A stretch of 64,000 nt of DNA from Solibacillus sp. FSL R5-0449 (GTDB lineage Bacteria > Bacillota > Bacilli > Bacillales_A > Planococcaceae): the NCBI RefSeq assembly GCF_037975215.1, contig NZ_CP150239.1, positions 906,001 through 970,000 of the forward strand, given 5' to 3'. Shown here piece by piece: positions 10,992 through 19,724 of this stretch. Position 1 is the first letter of the stretch. Each line of letters starts with the position of its first letter. Made by a program: the position numbers and the translations under genes. Under the pieces are notes generated by a model that saw nothing but the letters and a program-made list of their open reading frames with translations, ran no database searches and had not been told where the DNA came from.

Positions 10992-11708
10992 TTGGAACAA
11001 ATCGAACAAAAGCCATTGACTCCTGATACGTTTATGCAGGGGATAAAAGATTGCGTACCAACATTACTCGGGTATATTAGCATCGGTCTTGCATTTGGTG
11101 TGGTCGGAATTGCATCAGGCATATCGGTATTGGAAGTATTTTTACTGTCGGTGCTTGTATATGCCGGGTCCGCCCAGTTTATCTTTTGTGGATTGTATTT
11201 AGCAGGAGCTCCTGTAACAGCGGTCATTGTCACAATCTTTATCGTCAATTTACGGCACTTGCTCATGTCTTTGACAATTGCACCGTACTTCACCAAGTAT
11301 TCGACACTGCGTAATATCGGGTTCGGGACATTGCTGACAGATGAAACATTCGGTGTCTCTGTCGTTGCTGCCGGAAAAGAAGGGCGTCTTGGCGGAAGGT
11401 GGATGGATGGTTTAAACATAACGGCCTATACAAGCTGGATTGCCGCGTGTACAGTTGGGGGCATTATCGGGCAATGGCTGCCGGATCCGGAAAAATGGGG
11501 CCTGGATTATGCTTTAGTGGCAATGTTTGTTGCGCTGCTTGTCCTGACGCTTGCGAGCATTCCAAAAGAAAAATTAATGCATTACATAAAACTGATTGCC
11601 ATTATGGTGATCAGCATGTACGGGATGCTTTACTTCATGCCGGGGCATTTAGCTGTTCTGTTATCAACAATGGTCGTTGCGACGATTGGGGTGGTATTGG
11701 AAAAATGA
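10992..11708 (+). CDS. azlC: AzlC family branched-chain amino acid exporter, large subunit
   Basis: Membrane protein of the AzlC/YgaZ family, which exports branched-chain amino acids and analogues together with AzlD. About 238 residues with several hydrophobic helices and the family motifs GYISIGLAFGVVG (near residue 25-40) and YAGSAQFIFCG (near 60). TTG 10992 is chosen because AGGAG ends 9 nt upstream; another in-frame TTG at 10983 directly abuts that site. It overlaps azlD by 4 bp (ATGA). B. subtilis has ylyA at this place, so azlCD is an insertion relative to that order. Confidence 0.93.
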   Translation: MEQIEQKPLTPDTFMQGIKDCVPTLLGYISIGLAFGVVGIASGISVLEVFLLSVLVYAGSAQFIFCGLYLAGAPVTAVIVTIFIVNLRHLLMSLTIAPYFTKYSTLRNIGFGTLLTDETFGVSVVAAGKEGRLGGRWMDGLNITAYTSWIAACTVGGIIGQWLPDPEKWGLDYALVAMFVALLVLTLASIPKEKLMHYIKLIAIMVISMYGMLYFMPGHLAVLLSTMVVATIGVVLEK

Positions 11709-12031
11709 CAACCTCGTTAGCGATGGTATTATTAATTTTAGGATGTGCCTTAGTGACATGGATACCTAGAGTAATGCCGTTTATATTAGTGAAGAATATG
11801 AAAATGCCGAAAATCGTCCTGCGATGGCTTGCCTACATACCGGTTTGTATATTGTCCGCTCTCGTAATTGAAGGTTTCTTCGAGAAAGAAGAAGCATTCG
11901 TTACGGTTCAGTGGCTGAATGTAATTGCGTTTATTCCAACACTATTTATTGCTTTACTTACAAAAAGTTTATCAAAAACCGTAGTTGCCGGTGTCGTGAC
12001 AATGGCGGGACTGCGGTTATTATTCGGTTGA
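11705..12031 (+). CDS. azlD: AzlD family branched-chain amino acid exporter, small subunit
   Basis: A 108-residue hydrophobic protein with three or four membrane helices and the conserved TWIPRVMPF motif near residue 20. It is the partner of AzlC, and translation is probably coupled through the ATGA overlap. The nearby ileS gene makes a link to branched-chain amino acid balance plausible, but a terminator lies between them. Confidence 0.92.
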   Translation: MTTSLAMVLLILGCALVTWIPRVMPFILVKNMKMPKIVLRWLAYIPVCILSALVIEGFFEKEEAFVTVQWLNVIAFIPTLFIALLTKSLSKTVVAGVVTMAGLRLLFG

Positions 12032-12040
12032 AGGTTTAAG

Positions 12041-12078
12041 GCTTGTTTAGTTGAATGTGACTAAACAAGCTTTTTTTG
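12041..12078 (+). terminator. Terminator after azlCD
   Basis: GCTTGTTTAG (12041-12050) pairs with CTAAACAAGC (12061-12070), followed by seven T. Perfect 10-bp stem. Confidence 0.9.
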
Positions 12079-12140
12079 TAGAACTTTTCGAGTAATGAAG
12101 AGTGTTTTATTTTCCTTTCTTGTCACTTTTCGCGTATTAA

Positions 12141-12173
12141 AAATATCAGATGGTCTGATATTTATGTTAAAAT
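12141..12173 (+). promoter_or_regulatory. Perfect inverted repeat (candidate operator) over the lspA promoter
   Basis: AAATATCAGA (12141-12150), TGG, TCTGATATTT (12154-12163) is a perfect 10-bp inverted repeat. It is immediately followed by an extended -10 TGTTAAAAT (TG 12165-12166, TAAAAT 12168-12173). A dimeric repressor bound here would cover the promoter of lspA-rluD. No repressor gene lies beside it and I do not recognise the motif. Confidence 0.6.
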
Positions 12174-12205
12174 AGGTAAGATATATCGTAAACGGAGGAT
12201 CTGCT

Positions 12206-12682
12206 GTGTATAAATATTACGGAATCGCAATAATTGCAGTCATTTTGGATCAATGGACAAAGTGGCTCATTGTTAAAAATATGGAATTAGGGGAACGCAT
12301 CAGTGTTTGGGATCCTTGGTTTGGCATCTTATCGCATCGTAATCGTGGTGCGGCATGGGGCATGCTGGAAGGACAAATGTGGTTGTTCTCACTCGTAACA
12401 GTTGCTGTCATTATCGCAATTATTTATTTTAATCATACAGAAGCAAAGGGTAAGCCACTATTTCATGTAAGTTTAATGTTGTTATTAGGTGGTGCGGTCG
12501 GTAACTTTATTGACCGTTTATTCCGAGGAGAAGTAGTTGATTTTGTCGATGTTTTTATACCGGTAATCAACTATCATTTCCCGATCTTTAATATTGCAGA
12601 CGCAGCTTTAACAATTGCTGTTGTAATGCTTTTCATTACGATCATACTAGAAGAAAAAAAGGATAAGAAAAAGGTGAAATAA
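12206..12682 (+). CDS. lspA: Lipoprotein signal peptidase (signal peptidase II)
   Basis: Membrane aspartic protease that cleaves the signal peptide of prolipoproteins after lipidation. The 158-residue protein has four hydrophobic helices, the conserved [10 protein letters not shown] loop (about 43-52), and the catalytic aspartates D103 in VGNFIDR and D132 in FNIADAAL. Start is GTG 12206, 6 nt after GGAGGA. It overlaps rluD by 1 bp. The OppA lipoprotein in this window would be one of its substrates. Confidence 0.97.
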
Positions 12683-13584
12683 TGACAGTAGTCACATTAA
12701 CAATAGAAGAATTTGCAGGAGAACGTATCGATAAGGCACTTTCACAAATGGAAGAATCTTGGTCACGTTCGCAAATTGGTAACTGGCTGGATGAAGAGCG
12801 TATTTTAGTGAACGGTGCAGCCGTAAAAGCAAAATATAAAGTAAAACAAGGGGACGTTATTGAAGTAACGGTTCCTGAAGTGGAAGATTTGGAAATCGTT
12901 CCAGAAGATTTAAATTTGGAAATCGTTTATGAAGATGCCGACGTATTAGTCGTGAATAAACCGCGTGGAATGGTCGTTCACCCGGCTCCAGGCCATACTT
13001 CAGGCACATTAGTAAATGGTTTAATGCATCACTGCAAAGACTTATCAGGCATTAACGGTGTAGCACGTCCAGGGATTGTACACCGTATTGATAAAGATAC
13101 GTCCGGTTTATTAATGGTAGCAAAAAATGATGTTGCCCATGAAAGTCTTGTTAATCAGCTTGTTGAGAAGTCGGTAACACGTAAGTATACGGCTTTAGTA
13201 CATGGTCATATTGCGCATGAAAAAGGCACAATTGATGCACCGATCGGCCGTGACCAGAAAGACCGTCAAAAGCAGGCCGTTGTCGATAAAGGCAAGCATG
13301 CGGTTACACATTTCCAAGTAATCGAGCGTTTTGGTGACTTTACTTTAGTGGAGTGCCGTCTTGAAACAGGCCGTACCCACCAAATTCGTGTGCACATGAA
13401 CTATATTGGTTTCCCATTGGCAGGCGATCCGAAATATGGTCCAAGAAAAACAATCGATTTCGGCGGACAAGTTTTACATGCAGGTGTTTTAGGCTTTATC
13501 CACCCTGTAACGAAAAAATATTTAGAGTTTGAATCACCACTACCGGAAGATTTCAAACAGTTATTAGAAGAATTACGCGGGTAA
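12682..13584 (+). CDS. rluD: RluD-family ribosomal large subunit pseudouridine synthase (YlyB)
   Basis: Converts specific uridines of 23S rRNA to pseudouridine. The 300-residue protein has an N-terminal S4 RNA-binding domain (about 12-75) and a catalytic domain with the motif HRIDKDTSGLLMVAKN, catalytic Asp near residue 137. The C-terminal GRTHQIRVHM motif is also present. Start ATG overlaps the lspA stop codon. In B. subtilis the homologue ylyB lies between lspA and pyrR. RluA/C/D subfamily assignment is by similarity, so the exact target uridines are not certain. Confidence 0.94.
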   Translation: MTVVTLTIEEFAGERIDKALSQMEESWSRSQIGNWLDEERILVNGAAVKAKYKVKQGDVIEVTVPEVEDLEIVPEDLNLEIVYEDADVLVVNKPRGMVVHPAPGHTSGTLVNGLMHHCKDLSGINGVARPGIVHRIDKDTSGLLMVAKNDVAHESLVNQLVEKSVTRKYTALVHGHIAHEKGTIDAPIGRDQKDRQKQAVVDKGKHAVTHFQVIERFGDFTLVECRLETGRTHQIRVHMNYIGFPLAGDPKYGPRKTIDFGGQVLHAGVLGFIHPVTKKYLEFESPLPEDFKQLLEELRG

Positions 13585-13593
13585 TCGCGAATG

Positions 13594-13622
13594 GCCGTCA
13601 CCTTTTTGGGGGCGGTTTTTTG
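13594..13622 (+). terminator. Terminator after rluD
   Basis: GCCGTCACC pairs with GGGGGCGGT (one mismatch, one G-T pair) around a TTTTT loop and is followed by six T. Confidence 0.7.
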
Positions 13623-13661
13623 TTTCAGGAGTTTAGGGCATTCAGGTTACTTGGAGTGATT

Positions 13662-13990
13662 TTATTAGAACATTTGAAGGGGATATTAGAAGAAGTTGCG
13701 GGGATATTAGAAGTTTTGGAGCTTTTATTAGAAAACGGGTGGAAATGGTTTCGGTTAGTGATGAATTTTCTGACTGGAGAGGTGTTCTGACAGCTTGACA
13801 ATAATTTTATTAGAACATTTGAGTGGGATATTAGAAAAAGTTGCGGGGATATTAGCACATTGGGAAGCTTTATTAGAAGATCACGAATACTTATTTGAAC
13901 AATCGGCCATTATATTAGAAGATCAAACTTTTGTTAGAAGATTTCGGAATATATTAGAACATTCAGCACACTTATTAGAAAATTCCCACC
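13662..13990. repeat. 21-bp periodic array of WTATTAGAA motifs (two blocks)
   Basis: The 9-mer WTATTAGAA, or a one-base variant, begins at 13662, 13683, 13704 and 13725 (block 1). In block 2 it begins at 13807, 13828, 13849, 13870, 13891, 13912, 13931, 13951 and 13972. The step is exactly 21 bp except 19 and 20 around 13931. Each unit is the 9-mer plus about 12 variable bases. The first three units of block 2 are a near copy of those of block 1, 145 bp away. Two forward frames stay open because the period is 7 codons (L/I-L-E every seven residues), but no start codon with a ribosome site was found. Function unknown. Confidence 0.85.
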
Positions 13991-14062
13991 ATGCTCACAA
14001 TCGAAATAAAATTCAAACTATTCAAACATCAATTTTCAGTTGTCTGACCTTCACTAAGTCAG

Positions 14063-14091
14063 TTGACTTATAAAATAATCAAGCCTATACT
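14063..14091 (+). promoter_or_regulatory. Promoter of the pyr operon
   Basis: TTGACT (14063-14068), a 17-bp spacer and TATACT (14086-14091): a strong sigma-A promoter. The predicted start near 14098 places a leader of about 260 nt before pyrR. Confidence 0.85.
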
Positions 14092-14098
14092 GACAACA

Positions 14099-14137
14099 GT
14101 GAGCTACAGAACTTGACGAGAGCAAGCAGGTAGTCAC
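14099..14137 (+). other. Hairpin at the 5' end of the pyr leader
   Basis: GTGA-CTAC (14099-14107, one bulged G) pairs with GTAGTCAC (14130-14137). Inside it CTTG pairs with CAAG (about 14112-14125). It begins at the predicted transcript start and is separate from the PyrR attenuator. It may protect the 5' end. Confidence 0.45.
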
Positions 14138-14178
14138 AGCAAAACAAATCAATCTGAATATTGTTCACCTTTAATGGC

Positions 14179-14300
14179 AGTCCAGAGAGGCTGAGAAGGG
14201 ATAATGTGAAGCAACGGAATTTTTGTGCGCAAAAATACCCGTGTGCAGTTTTTCAACATGACTTTTCAAACCCTCTAGAACTTTCTAGAGGGTTTTTTGT
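14179..14300 (+). promoter_or_regulatory. PyrR-dependent attenuator upstream of pyrR
   Basis: The PyrR-binding loop AGTCCAGAGAGGCT is at 14179-14192. The terminator hairpin ACCCTCTAGAA/TTCTAGAGGGT-like with a T run lies at about 14269-14300. In the known mechanism PyrR with UMP binds the loop, stabilises the anti-antiterminator and so favours termination when pyrimidines are plentiful. Confidence 0.93.
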
Positions 14301-14316
14301 TTGAAACTTACATTGA

Positions 14317-14901
<585 letters not shown>

Positions 14902-14923
14902 GTGAACACAGGGAGAGAACATC

Positions 14924-16222
14924 ATGACGAAAGCAGTATTGGATATTCATGAAAAACCTACAGCAGGGCAGCTGATTACATTTAGTTTCCAGCATATGTT
15001 TGCCATGTTCGGATCAACAATTTTAGTACCAAAATTAGTCGGGCTGAGCCCAGCGATAGCACTTTTAACAAGCGGAATCGCCACAATCATCTTTTTGTTC
15101 ATTACACAGTTTAAAGTACCGGCTTACTTAGGTTCATCGTTCGCCTTCATCTCTCCTATTATCTTAGTAGCAGGAATGACGGAAGCAGGAGTTTCCATCA
15201 ACCCGGGAAATGCAATGATCGGGGCAATGATGGTCGGGGTTGTATACGCAATCGTAGCATTATTAATTTGGAAAACAGGCTACAAATGGCTGATGAATAT
15301 TTTACCGCCAATCGTTGTTGCACCGGTAATCATCGTAATCGGATTAGGCTTGTCAGGCACGGCAGTAGATATGGCGATGAATGTGAACGGGGAATATAGC
15401 GGCCTTCATTTCTCGGCAGCATTAGTAACATTAGCGACGGCGATTATTTTCACTGTATTCTTTAAAAACATTTTAAGTGCAATGCCGATTCTTATGGGAA
15501 TTGTAGTCGGCTATATATATTCAGTCATCGTCGGAATCGTTGACTTCACGGCAGTAAAAAATGCGAAGTTCTTCGCTTTGCCGGACTTCTTAATCCCTGG
15601 TGTAGATTATGAGTTCCAACTTACTGGAGCTATCTTTATCGGGATGGTGCCGATCGTCATTGTGACGATTTCAGAACATATCGGTCACCAGCTAGTGTTA
15701 GGAAAAGTTGTAAACCGCAACTATATTAAAGATCCGGGCTTACATCGTTCGCTGTTAGGTGATGGTCTTGGAACATTTGCTTCAGCACTGATCGGTGGTC
15801 CGCCAAAAACTACATATGGCGAAAACATCGGGGTTCTAGCAATCACACGTGTATATTCAGTGTATGTAATCATGGGAGCAGCAGTCGTTGCCATCATCGT
15901 ATCGTTTTCAGGTCAGCTGATGGCACTGATTGAAACGATTCCGACAGCGGTACTTGGCGGTATTTCAATCCTGTTATTCGGGATTATCGCAGCAAGCGGT
16001 TTACGTATGTTAGTGGAAAGTAAAGTGGACTTCGGAAATAACCGGAACATGGTTATTGCATCTGTCATACTGGTAGTCGGAATCGGCGGAGCAGCAATGC
16101 GCTTTACAGAAAGCTTTGCGATTGAAGGCATGGCATTAGCATCGATTATCGGTGTCATCTTGAACCTTGTATTGCCGGGCCGTGAAGTAACAGAAAAAGA
16201 TATTTACGAAACAGAAGAATAA
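14924..16222 (+). CDS. pyrP: Uracil permease
   Basis: Uracil:proton symporter of the nucleobase-ascorbate transporter (NCS2/UraA) family. The 432-residue membrane protein has about 14 hydrophobic segments. Family motifs include FQHMFAMFGSTILVP near the N-terminus and the substrate-site stretches VTISEHIGHQLVLG and ALIGGPPKTTYGENIG. RBS GGGAGAG precedes ATG. It lies 22 bp after pyrR with no room for the inter-cistronic attenuator known at this place in B. subtilis. Confidence 0.96.
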   Translation: MTKAVLDIHEKPTAGQLITFSFQHMFAMFGSTILVPKLVGLSPAIALLTSGIATIIFLFITQFKVPAYLGSSFAFISPIILVAGMTEAGVSINPGNAMIGAMMVGVVYAIVALLIWKTGYKWLMNILPPIVVAPVIIVIGLGLSGTAVDMAMNVNGEYSGLHFSAALVTLATAIIFTVFFKNILSAMPILMGIVVGYIYSVIVGIVDFTAVKNAKFFALPDFLIPGVDYEFQLTGAIFIGMVPIVIVTISEHIGHQLVLGKVVNRNYIKDPGLHRSLLGDGLGTFASALIGGPPKTTYGENIGVLAITRVYSVYVIMGAAVVAIIVSFSGQLMALIETIPTAVLGGISILLFGIIAASGLRMLVESKVDFGNNRNMVIASVILVVGIGGAAMRFTESFAIEGMALASIIGVILNLVLPGREVTEKDIYETEE

Positions 16223-16241
16223 AATAATACCTTTTAAAGAT

Positions 16242-16356
16242 TGTCCAGAGAGGCAAGGAAGGGTATGACATGCATAAAAGGATCACCGAAAAGGATGATG
16301 CCTTACCTTGTCACACCCTCCAAGCCTCGCTAATGATCATAGCGAGGCTTATTTAT
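16242..16356 (+). promoter_or_regulatory. Second PyrR attenuator, between pyrP and pyrB
   Basis: TGTCCAGAGAGGCA at 16242-16255 is the PyrR-binding loop. AAGCCTCGCTA (16322 onward) pairs with TAGCGAGGCTT (to 16350) as the terminator, followed by ATTTAT. A longer competing pairing of AAGGAAGGGT with ACACCCTCC-type sequence fits the antiterminator arrangement. Confidence 0.88.
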
Positions 16357-16469
16357 GACGAGATATTGTATATTTAAACAAAAAGTAGATTAAATATTCA
16401 TAATGTAATAAAATAATATCAAGCTAGCATTTGCGCCGGGGCGTAATTGACATAAGCGGAGGTACTCAC

Positions 16470-17387
16470 ATGAAAAACTTATTATCGATGGAACATTTGT
16501 CAAATGAAGAAATAATGATGATTTTAAATCGAGCACAGCATTTCGAAGATGGAGAAAAACCTGTGTTACCACGTGACTTTCATGTAGCAAACCTTTTCTT
16601 TGAGCCAAGTACACGTACAAAAACGAGCTTTGAAATGGCGGAGCGTCGACTAGGGTGTACAGTAATTCCGTTTGATGCTGAATTCTCCAGCACAACAAAA
16701 GGAGAAACACTGTACGACACAGTCAAAACATTGGAAATGATCGGCATTGATGCGGTCGTAATTCGGGATAAGGAAGATGAATATTATAACGAGCTTTTAG
16801 AAGGAATCGGGTGTGCAGTCATCAATGCAGGAGACGGCGCTGGCCAGCATCCTTCACAGTCATTGCTGGATTTATATACGATCCAGAAAGAGTTCGGGCG
16901 ATTTGAAGATTTGAATATTACAATCGTCGGAGATATTTCACATAGCCGTGTCGCAAAATCAAATGCGACAGCACTTACTCGTTTAGGGGCGAATGTCCGA
17001 TTCCTTTGTCCGCCGGCATGGGCAGGAAATTTTGAAGCGGCACATAGCTGGGATGAAGTACTTGAAGACAGCGATGTCATCATGCTGCTGCGCATCCAGC
17101 ATGAACGTCATTCCGTAAGCAAGAACTTTTCAAAAGAAAGCTACCATGCAGAATACGGCTTAACAATTGAACGTGAACAGCGGATGAAAGAGCGAGCTAT
17201 CATTATGCACCCGGCACCGGTGAACCGTGATGTGGAAATTGCGGATGCCCTTGTTGAATGCAGTCGTTCCCGCATTTTTGAACAAGTGCGAAACGGTGTA
17301 TTTACTCGAATGGCCATTTTAGAAACGATTTTGAAAGGAAGAGATCAATATGACAACAGTTATACAAAATGTGAAACTACTCAATAA
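16470..17387 (+). CDS. pyrB: Aspartate carbamoyltransferase catalytic subunit
   Basis: Condenses carbamoyl phosphate and aspartate to carbamoyl-aspartate, the committed pyrimidine step. The 305-residue protein has the carbamoyl-phosphate motif [13 protein letters not shown] (43-55) and [14 protein letters not shown] 16470 is used because GGAGG lies 7 nt upstream; an upstream in-frame start at 16431 has none. Its 3' end overlaps pyrC by 38 bp. No regulatory subunit gene is present, as usual in Bacillales. Confidence 0.97.
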
Positions 17388-18624
17388 GGAAGGCGAATTA
17401 GTAGTATCTACTATTGTAATAGAAAACGGCAAAATCGCTTCGATTAATGGAGACATTCCAACTGGCGCTAAACTGATTGACGGTAAAGGCTATTTCGCAT
17501 CACCAGGTTTTGTCGATGTACATACACATTTACGTGAGCCTGGCTTTGAACATAAAGAAACGATTGCAACAGGTTCAGCATCTGCAGCAAAAGGCGGTTT
17601 TACAACAATATGTGCGATGCCAAATACGAAGCCGGTACCGGATTCGGTGGAAAATATGCAGCTCATTAACGGTTTGATTAAAGAAAGCGCAGTAATTCGG
17701 GTTTTACCATACGGTTCATTAACGAAAGACATTTCAGGTGAAGTTCGCACAAATATGCAAGAGTTAAAAGAACAAGGTGCAGTCGCTTTCTCGGATGACG
17801 GGATCGGAATTCAGTTAGCGTCGACTATGTATGAGCAAATGCAGCAGGCAGCAAAAATCGATGCGGTAGTTGTTGCACACTGTGAAGATAATTCACTTAT
17901 TTACGATGGGGTTATGCATGAAGGTAAACGAAATAAAGAACTTGGATTACCAGGAATTCCTTCAATTTGCGAATCAGTACAGATCGCTCGTGATGTACTG
18001 CTCGCAGAAGCGGCCGGTGCACGCTACCATGTTTGCCACGTATCGACGAAAGAATCCGTACGTGCTGTAAGAGATGCGAAAGCGGCAGGTATTAAAGTGA
18101 CTGCGGAAGTTTGTCCTCACCACTTATTATTAGAAGAAATGGACATTCCATCAGATGATGCGAACTGGAAGATGAATCCTCCATTACGAGCTGCAGACGA
18201 TAAAGATTCACTGCATGCAGCACTTTTGGACGGTACGATCGACTGTATCGCGACAGACCATGCACCGCATACAGAAGAGGAAAAATGCTGCGGTATGGTT
18301 GGGGCACCATTTGGAATCGTCGGTTTTGAAACAGCATTCCCATTGTTGTATACAAATTTTGTAGCGACAGGAAAATGGACATTAAAACAATTAGTCGACT
18401 GGATGAGTGTAAAAGCAGCCCAAATTTTCGATCTTCCATACGGAACATTGGAAGTAGGCGCATCAGCAGATCTTGTACTAATTGATTTGGATAAAGAACA
18501 GGCAATCGATGCAGATGGTTTTGTTTCTAAAGGACGCAATACACCATTTAACGGATGGACAGCAAAAGGATGGCCGGTAGTAACGATGTTTGAAGGCAAT
18601 ATTGTATATCAGGAGGCAGAATAA
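17350..18624 (+). CDS. pyrC: Dihydroorotase
   Basis: Zinc amidohydrolase that cyclises carbamoyl-aspartate to dihydroorotate. The 424-residue class I enzyme carries the metal motif [10 protein letters not shown] (His58, His60), further metal His in VVAHCEDN and [10 protein letters not shown], and the catalytic Asp in ATDHAPH near residue 303. AAAGGAAG precedes ATG, inside the end of pyrB, suggesting translational coupling. Its stop codon overlaps the carA start (TAATG). Confidence 0.97.
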
Positions 18625-19724
18625 TGAAAAAGCGTTTATTAATTTTAGAAGATGGCACTGTATTTACAGGCACTGCATTTGGAAGCGACAAAGCAAGTCA
18701 AGGAGAAGTTGTATTTACAACAGGGATGACAGGCTATCAGGAAACAATTTCAGATCCGTCATTTTACGGGCAAATTGTTACATTAACATACCCGTTAGTT
18801 GGAAATTACGGCATCAACCGTGATGACTTTGAAGCGATTACTCCTGCAATCCGCGGTTTTGTCGTACGCGAATTGGCAGAGCAGCCATCAAACTGGCGCT
18901 CGGATATGTCTTTAGGGGATTACTTGGCATCACAAAATATCCCTGGCATTGAGGGAATCGATACAAGAAAGTTAACGCGCATTATTCGTACAAAAGGGGC
19001 TGTACGCGCAATCTTAACGGAAGCAGACGCTGAAGTGGATATCACACAAATCGTCGCTCAATTACAGGAAACACCTTATATTACACATCATGTCCGCGAA
19101 GTATCGCCAAAAGCGGCATACCCTTCACCAGGACGCGGAAAACGTGTTGTGCTGATTGATTTTGGAATGAAACACGGCATTTTACGCGAACTGAACAAAC
19201 GTGACTGTGATGTACTTGTCGTACCTTACAATACAACTGCCGAACAAATTTTAGCAATGCATCCGGATGGTATCATGCTTTCAAATGGTCCAGGGAACCC
19301 GGAAGATGTAACAGAAGGAATTGAAACGATTAAAGGACTAATCGGAAAAGTGCCAATCTTCGGTATTTGTCTAGGGCATCAGCTGTTTTCACTAGCTTGT
19401 GGCGCGAAATCGTTCAAATTGCCATTCGGTCACCGAGGCGGAAATCACCCGGTAAAAAATCTGCGTACGGGTCGTACGGATTTAACGAGCCAAAACCATG
19501 GCTATGCAATTGATATCGAGTCATTAAAAGACACGGATCTGGAGTTAACGCATGTCGCTTTAAATGATGGAACATGTGAAGGGGTACGTCATAAGAAATA
19601 TCCGATCTTCACTGTGCAGTATCACCCGGAAGCATCACCAGGTCCTGAAGATTCAAACTACCTATTTGATGAATTTATCGAAATGATGGAAATCGAAGCA
19701 GCAAAGGAGAACCAATATGCCTAA
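18624..19724 (+). CDS. carA: Carbamoyl-phosphate synthase small (glutaminase) subunit
   Basis: Supplies ammonia from glutamine to CarB. The 366-residue protein has an N-terminal CPSase small-chain domain and a class I glutamine amidotransferase domain. The nucleophile Cys249 lies in GICLGHQ and the catalytic His/Glu in [17 protein letters not shown] precedes ATG. It overlaps carB by 8 bp. In Bacillus nomenclature this is pyrAA. Confidence 0.97.

Follow-up and report, generated by a model that had tools for sequence, protein, structure and literature searches.

A dispersed family of helically phased WTATTAGAA arrays in Solibacillus with the features of a putative protein-binding element

Introduction

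Many families of intergenic repeats in bacterial genomes have no known role. Tandem direct repeats of about 10, 11 or 20–22 bp are bound cooperatively in iteron arrays and parC-type centromeres, which are sometimes laid out in two blocks; a replicon has one or two such sites, next to the gene for the protein that binds them. LytTR sites have a 9 + 12 bp layout, and the known ones are pairs at promoters. REP and BIME sequences are placed at 3′ ends and are lineage-specific in sequence.

In Staphylococcus aureus, STAR elements are intergenic direct repeats at tens of loci, variable in repeat number and of unknown function, according to the available text of their description (PMC3532100). They combine a 14-bp G+C-rich consensus, T(G/A/T)TGTTG(G/T)GGCCC(C/A), with a recurring spacer of at least 40 bp that is often identical within a locus (PMC3532100). 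REP and BIME, by the available parts of two sources, are dispersed extragenic repeats in many copies (PMC2817692, PMC3733652). For RemA, the accessible portion of the source describes an octamer or 16-mer ring, for which DNA wrapping at roughly 10 bp per subunit has been proposed, and 7-bp protections 3 bp apart in A+T-rich direct repeats (PMC8481266). LytTR regulators, as excerpted, also read direct repeats (PMC4227749).

Here we analyze an array of WTATTAGAA motifs in Solibacillus sp. FSL R5-0449, noticed earlier in a sequence-only reading of a 64,000-nucleotide stretch. This stretch, hereafter the window, covers positions 906001–970000 of a 3.58-Mb single-contig genome (G000).

Results

The array sits between a gene that we take to be rluD, the name given in the sequence-only reading, and the pyr leader with its PyrR binding site (Table 1). 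The rluD open frame ends at 13584, and the terminator-like sequence directly precedes the array element. Thirteen WTATTAGAA motifs lie at 13662–13980, four in block 1 and nine in block 2, which confirms the number and two-block layout first reported; the motif positions also reproduce the reported 145 bp between the block starts. Ten motifs are exact and three are one base off, at 13849 (ATATTAGCA), 13891 (TTATTTGAA) and 13931 (TTGTTAGAA). The steps run 21, 21, 21 bp in block 1, then 82 bp, then 21, 21, 21, 21, 21, 19, 20, 21 bp. An exact 21-bp period, as claimed at the outset, applies to block 1 and, in block 2, to the first six motifs only; the tail of block 2, at 19, 20 and 20/21 bp, is a conserved feature and not noise. 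Between 11500 and 19000 of the window, no Rfam family except PyrR matched at gathering score, and positions 13600–14040 matched no plasmid.

Table 1. Coordinates of the array and adjoining features in the window
Feature	Position	Strand	Details
Terminator-like sequence after rluD	13585..13622	+	G+C-rich stem, then T run; by eye
Block 1, four motifs	13662..13733	+	Motif starts 13662, 13683, 13704, 13725; motif search; same block in orthologues G138 and G083
Inter-block gap	13734..13806	+	82 bp from last block-1 start to first block-2 start
Block 2, nine motifs	13807..13980	+	Motif starts 13807, 13828, 13849, 13870, 13891, 13912, 13931, 13951, 13972
C/A-rich right flank of element	13981..14010	+	C>G to the right of 39/46 arrays
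PyrR binding site of pyr leader (RF00515)	14164..14302		Rfam

The same rluD–pyr site carries the array in four relatives (G138, G083, G126 and G101), all with an inter-block gap of 82 bp, and a shortened form in G132, where five motifs remain after an internal deletion. In ten other genomes (G013, G048, G073, G144, G092, G114, G120, G108, G032 and G062), the array is absent from the stretch examined. Downstream of rluD in G048 (L130) and G013 (L131), a different A+T-rich repeat family (GGAATTTCCGTTATT, AAAATAACGG) occupies the array site.

Across G000, exact WTATTAGAA pairs at 21 bp number 200 (122 forward and 78 reverse), and the reversed pattern gives none; with steps of 19–21 bp the counts are 321 and 0. 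The array is therefore not a product of chance. The 19-bp joint of block 2 was found 57 times with at most one mismatch, twice inside one element, and 63 times with up to two mismatches, against 3 for the reversed control. We counted 53 arrays across 50 stretches (49 and the window), some of which are tandem runs of elements and two of which consist of only three or four motif calls. The dispersed repeat family proposed for the locus is supported by these 57 joints and 53 arrays, and the window array belongs to a dispersed family of non-coding elements found in the Solibacillus group. Neither a partition-like layout, also entertained earlier, nor a replichore-polar one is evident by eye: clusters lie on both strands and in both chromosome halves, taking the contig start to be near the origin.

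The geometry of the element is fixed and non-uniform. Block 2 normally has nine motifs at steps of 21, 21, 21, 21, 21, 19, 20 and 20/21 bp, the first step sometimes being 20. Among the 47 elements with at least nine motifs, the last nine span 162–165 bp, and 41 follow the pattern 20/21, 21, 21, 21, 21, 19, 20/21, 20/21 (the five commonest step patterns). Block 1, where present, usually has four motifs at 21 bp. Altered or shortened geometry is seen in some copies (L097, L112, L158 and L164).

Longer steps are also constrained. Thirty-one of the 38 steps of at least 30 bp in G000 measure 71, 72, 81 or 82 bp, and the two classes, 71/72 and 81/82 bp, differ by one helical turn. The best common lattice for 48 elements with at least eight motifs has a period of 10.28 bp (R = 0.867, vs 0.788 at 10.2 and 0.488 at 10.5 bp), a value of R that is inflated and is not an independent-sample statistic, because the elements share ancestry. 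At one locus the gap is 71 bp in G000 and G138 vs 82 bp in G126, and at another 38 bp in G000 vs 49 bp in G126; these two cases of an 11-bp difference, close to one turn, are few, and the other orthologous gaps matched by eye differ by 0 or 1 bp. Gaps at L026/L166/L178 and an extra upstream gap in G126 and G101 (93 and 81 bp) could not be matched safely. The letters of the inter-block gap are free, and its length is held on the helical lattice.

We compared motif and spacer conservation in block 2 at 34 flank-placed locus pairs, 24 from G126 and 10 from G138, each against G000. They come from 40 stretches of G126 and G138 picked for likely synteny, with the rluD locus of each added. Three stretches lacked a flank match in the G000 set (L154, L176 and L184), and 5 of the 37 flank-matched loci were dropped with at least one copy broken or shortened (L150, L151, L152, L186 and L187), since the comparison required a recognizable block 2 in both genomes. 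Motif identity exceeded spacer identity in all 34 pairs (Wilcoxon p = 3.6e-7). Because the elements had been found by motifs 6 and 7, the count was repeated on the other seven motifs: the excess held in 32 of 34 pairs, at a mean of 0.915 for motifs vs 0.777 for spacers (p = 4.8e-7). The two exceptions, L164 and L171, show low identity throughout and may be replaced copies. Within the 21-bp frame, the word positions and an A two bases after the word (0.93) are conserved, giving WTATTAGAAnA as the conserved word.

At the rluD locus, block 2 compared with G138, G083, G126 and G101 has motif identity of 0.90–0.99 and spacer identity of 0.70–0.76. Fourfold sites of rluD are 0.73–0.84 identical in the same four relatives, and the match indicates that the spacers drift about freely. 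The spacers measure 10–12 bp, with a mean pairwise identity between elements of 0.41. Flanks place 26 of 27 G126 stretches, again picked for likely synteny, at G000 loci.

Comparable arrays occur in related genomes. The WTATTAGAA pair search matched 19 of 200 family genomes, 13 of them with at least ten pairs: 11 of the 16 Solibacillus genomes (g1) and two in g11; the other six have one pair each. The possibility that the array has no counterpart in its relatives is thus contradicted by 11 of 16 congeners. Since it is absent from five of the 16 and from most of the family sample, any function it has is dispensable there. The array-bearing genomes comprise G000, G013, G048, G083, G101, G108, G114, G120, G126, G132, G138, G159 and G172; G032, G062, G073, G092 and G144 are array-free, as are other genomes of g11. 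Nine-motif elements of the same pattern are found in S. merdavium and S. faecavium. Rows in S. palustris are plain, with six or seven motifs at 21 bp, and Ureibacillus manganicus and U. acetophenoni have mostly four-motif blocks joined by 40-bp steps.

Other words form arrays elsewhere. By a looser pattern, TTATCGGAA arrays occur in 8 of 32 genomes of genus g14; order-wide, the looser search matched 24 of 261 genomes, with 4 matching the reversed control. Class-wide, triples of WTATNNGA, a degenerate pattern chosen partly with such sequences already in mind, matched 21 of 398 genomes vs 12 for the reversed control, and scattered TTATCCGAG, TTATCCGAT, TTATGTGAT and ATATATGAG arrays in other genomes stand against this non-zero control. 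Among the WTATNNGA matches, those in G347 are simple tandem repeats, and the spacers are almost identical in G046 and in part of G564. By eye, ten of 12 inspected matches outside Solibacillus and Ureibacillus look like plain tandem repeats; the other two, L050 and L051, do not, but they stand alone. In viral contigs, two TTATTAGAA-triple matches both resemble plain tandem repeats, and TTATCGGAA had no match. The generalization of word arrays across families is therefore weaker than it looks. Other-word tandem arrays with 20-bp steps are present in further genera of the family (L216 in G022, L218 in G018 and L219 in G105).

Arrays are not placed evenly among genes. A crude ORF caller placed the 53 arrays in 32 tandem, 19 convergent and 2 divergent gaps, vs 33, 3 and 8 among control gaps of at least 120 bp in 124 kb of G000 (chi-square p = 0.0007), a control with equally crude calls that includes array-bearing gaps and a 60-kb stretch chosen as array-rich. 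The upstream gene runs in the direction of the array at 40 of 53 arrays; in 24 of these 40 the array starts 55–90 bp after the upstream stop, and 30 of the 53 have five consecutive T in the 45 bp upstream. From these counts, arrays prefer 3′ ends of genes and convergent gaps, and they tend to sit past transcript ends and avoid promoter regions.

By eye, seven G000 arrays have no neighbor gene in common, and the array-dense stretch at 2.69–2.73 Mb of G000 contains mixed genes. In S. palustris and relatives with few arrays, the neighbors include genes that by eye are ArsR-like, glyoxalase-like and eno, as well as a NERD gene (PF08378), and no convincing binder candidate was found. A gene judged glyoxalase/PhnB-like by eye lies beside the array at L144 (G114), L146 (G120) and L193 (G108); one also adjoins an array in G000 (L191, 16405–17204) in another gene order, possibly by coincidence. 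At L145 (7081–8010, G114) and L147 (G120), an array is flanked by a gene judged eno-like by eye and by a NERD-domain gene, and PF08378 matched the G114 gene beside L145; this array is one of only two found in each of G114 and G120.

RemA appeared a good geometric match, because nine motifs span 16 x 10.25 bp. No RemA-like protein (PF04025) was found in G000 or in 35 other genomes of g1, g11 and g14, in a search whose B. subtilis positive control matched, which excludes RemA as the binder. The four genomes of 40 that match (G012, G338, G564 and G612) belong to other genera and carry other words. LytTR proteins, with subfamilies counted together, occur in 40 of 40 genomes, with or without arrays. 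In g1 their number does not follow the arrays (4–6 with, 4–5 without), and in g14 it is somewhat higher with arrays (7–10 in eight array-bearing vs 5–9 in six array-free genomes).

The element also bears traces of copying. The best non-tandem paralogues within G000 have spacer identities of 0.76–0.89. By eye, the similarity within L025/L114/L120 and within L011/L099 runs from block 1 across the gap to block 2, that of L019/L098 is confined to block 2, and in every case it stops at the edges of the array. The element has thus been copied as a unit, either entire or one block at a time. Growth by block duplication, as suggested from the near-repeat between the two blocks, is borne out by tandem copies at L012, L019 and L106 and by extra four-motif blocks at L108, L116 and L119. 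The expansion at L012 (1522–2321; about 313.5–314.3 kb of G000) is tandem with a period near 235 bp, and comprises three similar copies with spacer identities of 0.85–0.92. An ORF that resembles an IS200/IS605-type TnpA lies at L192 (19341–19814; about 2743.3 kb of G000).

The flanks are polar in composition. Of the 53 G000 arrays, 46 have a context label and were used; over 40 bp on each side, their left flanks are G/T-rich, with G>C at 44 arrays, and their right flanks C/A-rich, with C>G at 39. This polarity is alike in tandem and convergent settings, whatever the gene direction. At 35–75 bp after stops in array-free control gaps, the skew is 0.12, with G>C in 22 of 32. The flank composition is therefore real. 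The two flanks share no pair-specific inverted repeat (score 5.96 vs 5.85 for the re-paired null), and the empty-site comparison found no recent insertion with close flanks.

Discussion

In this element the word and its rotation are kept, the spacers are free, the gaps stay in phase, and no coding, RNA or curvature signal was detected; this is the footprint expected of a cooperative DNA-bound complex by which the gap is covered or bent. A cooperative DNA-binding array, one of the readings first offered for the locus, remains the likeliest on account of its conserved motif and spacing and free spacers, although the candidate searches found no binding protein. We consider it probable that the element is a phased array bound by a putative sequence-specific protein. 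WTATTAGAAnA sites on one face of the helix would recruit this protein, several subunits of which would form a complex that extends along the DNA and probably around it. The complex may bridge or wrap the 71–82 bp gap, because the gap keeps helical phase and not sequence. The bound array could serve as a boundary past terminators that stops read-through, retains supercoils between neighboring and often convergent transcription units, or does both; this boundary function, the use that we prefer, is a tentative suggestion drawn from position. The element would have spread by a copying process, and we propose that its copies have since been largely vertically inherited and kept by selection. As a whole, a family of phased protein-binding elements with boundary use is an explanation that we favor with moderate confidence.

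An alternative is a mobile repeat like STAR or MITE elements, either selfish or neutral, whose arrays would be sites for a copying enzyme and have no host role. Non-tandem paralogues that are alike inside the element and diverge at its edges, patchy presence among genomes and the precedent of STAR elements, the closest one and of unknown function in the available text (PMC3532100), are what such a repeat would leave. The mobile short-repeat family suggested earlier stands as to membership of a dispersed family. An unused mobile copy, however, should decay evenly, and the motifs are held against drift. The flank matches of the G126 stretches, the lack of a pair-specific inverted repeat and an element seemingly too short for a transposase gene also weigh against a selfish or neutral repeat, which we regard as rather unlikely. 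Wrapping sites for gyrase or another topoisomerase, absorbing positive supercoils beyond genes as at E. coli BIME-2, would fit the position past gene ends and between convergent genes and the phasing of about 10 bp. The E. coli gyrase motif, as described in the available part of the source, covers about 130 bp, its G+C content varying with a 10.75-bp period, and cleavage sites are enriched in BIME-2 (PMC6379681). Gyrase recognizes a degenerate composition rather than a nearly invariant word of nine letters. By eye the arrays show no apparent symmetric cleavage region at their center, and most of the family sample lacks the word although gyrase should be universal. Such sites are very unlikely.

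Two further readings follow from the 21-bp step itself. It equals seven codons, and one frame reads I/L-L-E repeatedly, as in a short repetitive protein or a transcribed RNA element. The conserved 19- and 20-bp steps break that frame, and stops are not specially depleted in spacer codons (35/1140 in the I/L-L-E frame, 45/855 and 24/855 in the other two), so a coding gene across the array is not supported. Block-2 RNA folds no better than spacer shuffles (z = 0.11 and 0.29 on the two strands, 57 copies), and Rfam offers no match at gathering score except PyrR in 11500–19000; we give an RNA or protein product little credence, less than gyrase sites. Two-turn spacing would also add up any bend, as in the phased bent segment proposed from the sequence. 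By a wedge model with assumed parameters, the predicted bend is no higher than background (58.5 vs 63.7, sd 35.1), and the actual words rank at a mean bend percentile of 0.36 among permuted words. Intrinsic curvature by phasing alone is accordingly not supported and is, to us, the least probable account.

The phased protein-binding reading can be carried further, doubtfully, to the DNA half of a new chromosome-organizing system of Bacilli: a nucleosome-like or filamentous particle on phased WTATnnGA words that might set topological boundaries beyond terminators. Lineages would then use dialects of the word: Solibacillus and two Ureibacillus species would have TTATTAGAA, g14 would have TTATCGGAA, and other genomes would have TTATCCGAG, TTATGTGAT and further forms. 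In these elements, sequence alone tells conserved features (word and rotational position) from free ones (spacer letters), which comes close to a natural protein footprint and makes the search for a binding protein a simple bait experiment. Patchy presence among close relatives provides matched strains with and without the system. A wrapping protein, if found, would count as a sequence-specific architectural protein whose fixed sites number in the dozens, and could be used to test how transcription units of Bacilli are insulated.

Among the matches listed from a mostly open-access literature, we found no earlier description of this element family, nor any phased array of a word at two-turn steps that combines free spacers with a fixed 21/19/20 geometry. 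Unlike iteron and parC-type sites, which are few per replicon, more than 50 arrays (53 counted) lie on one Solibacillus chromosome. Unlike RemA-bound repeats, they occur in a genome, G000, in which the RemA family has no match. REP sequences are palindromes with an associated transposase family, whereas the Solibacillus word is asymmetric, direct and phased; with RNA parameters, neither strand of block 2 shows the excess folding of a REP/BIME stem-loop.

By the available text on them, STAR elements are the nearest described kind. Both are interspersed intergenic direct repeats of a short consensus at tens of loci in a Bacillota genome. Unlike the 14-bp STAR consensus, the Solibacillus word, WTATTAGAAnA, has an A+T-rich 9-bp core; in place of the recurring STAR spacers of at least 40 bp described in that text, it is separated by free spacers of 10–12 bp, and the arrays differ further in their two-turn steps and fixed, non-uniform geometry.
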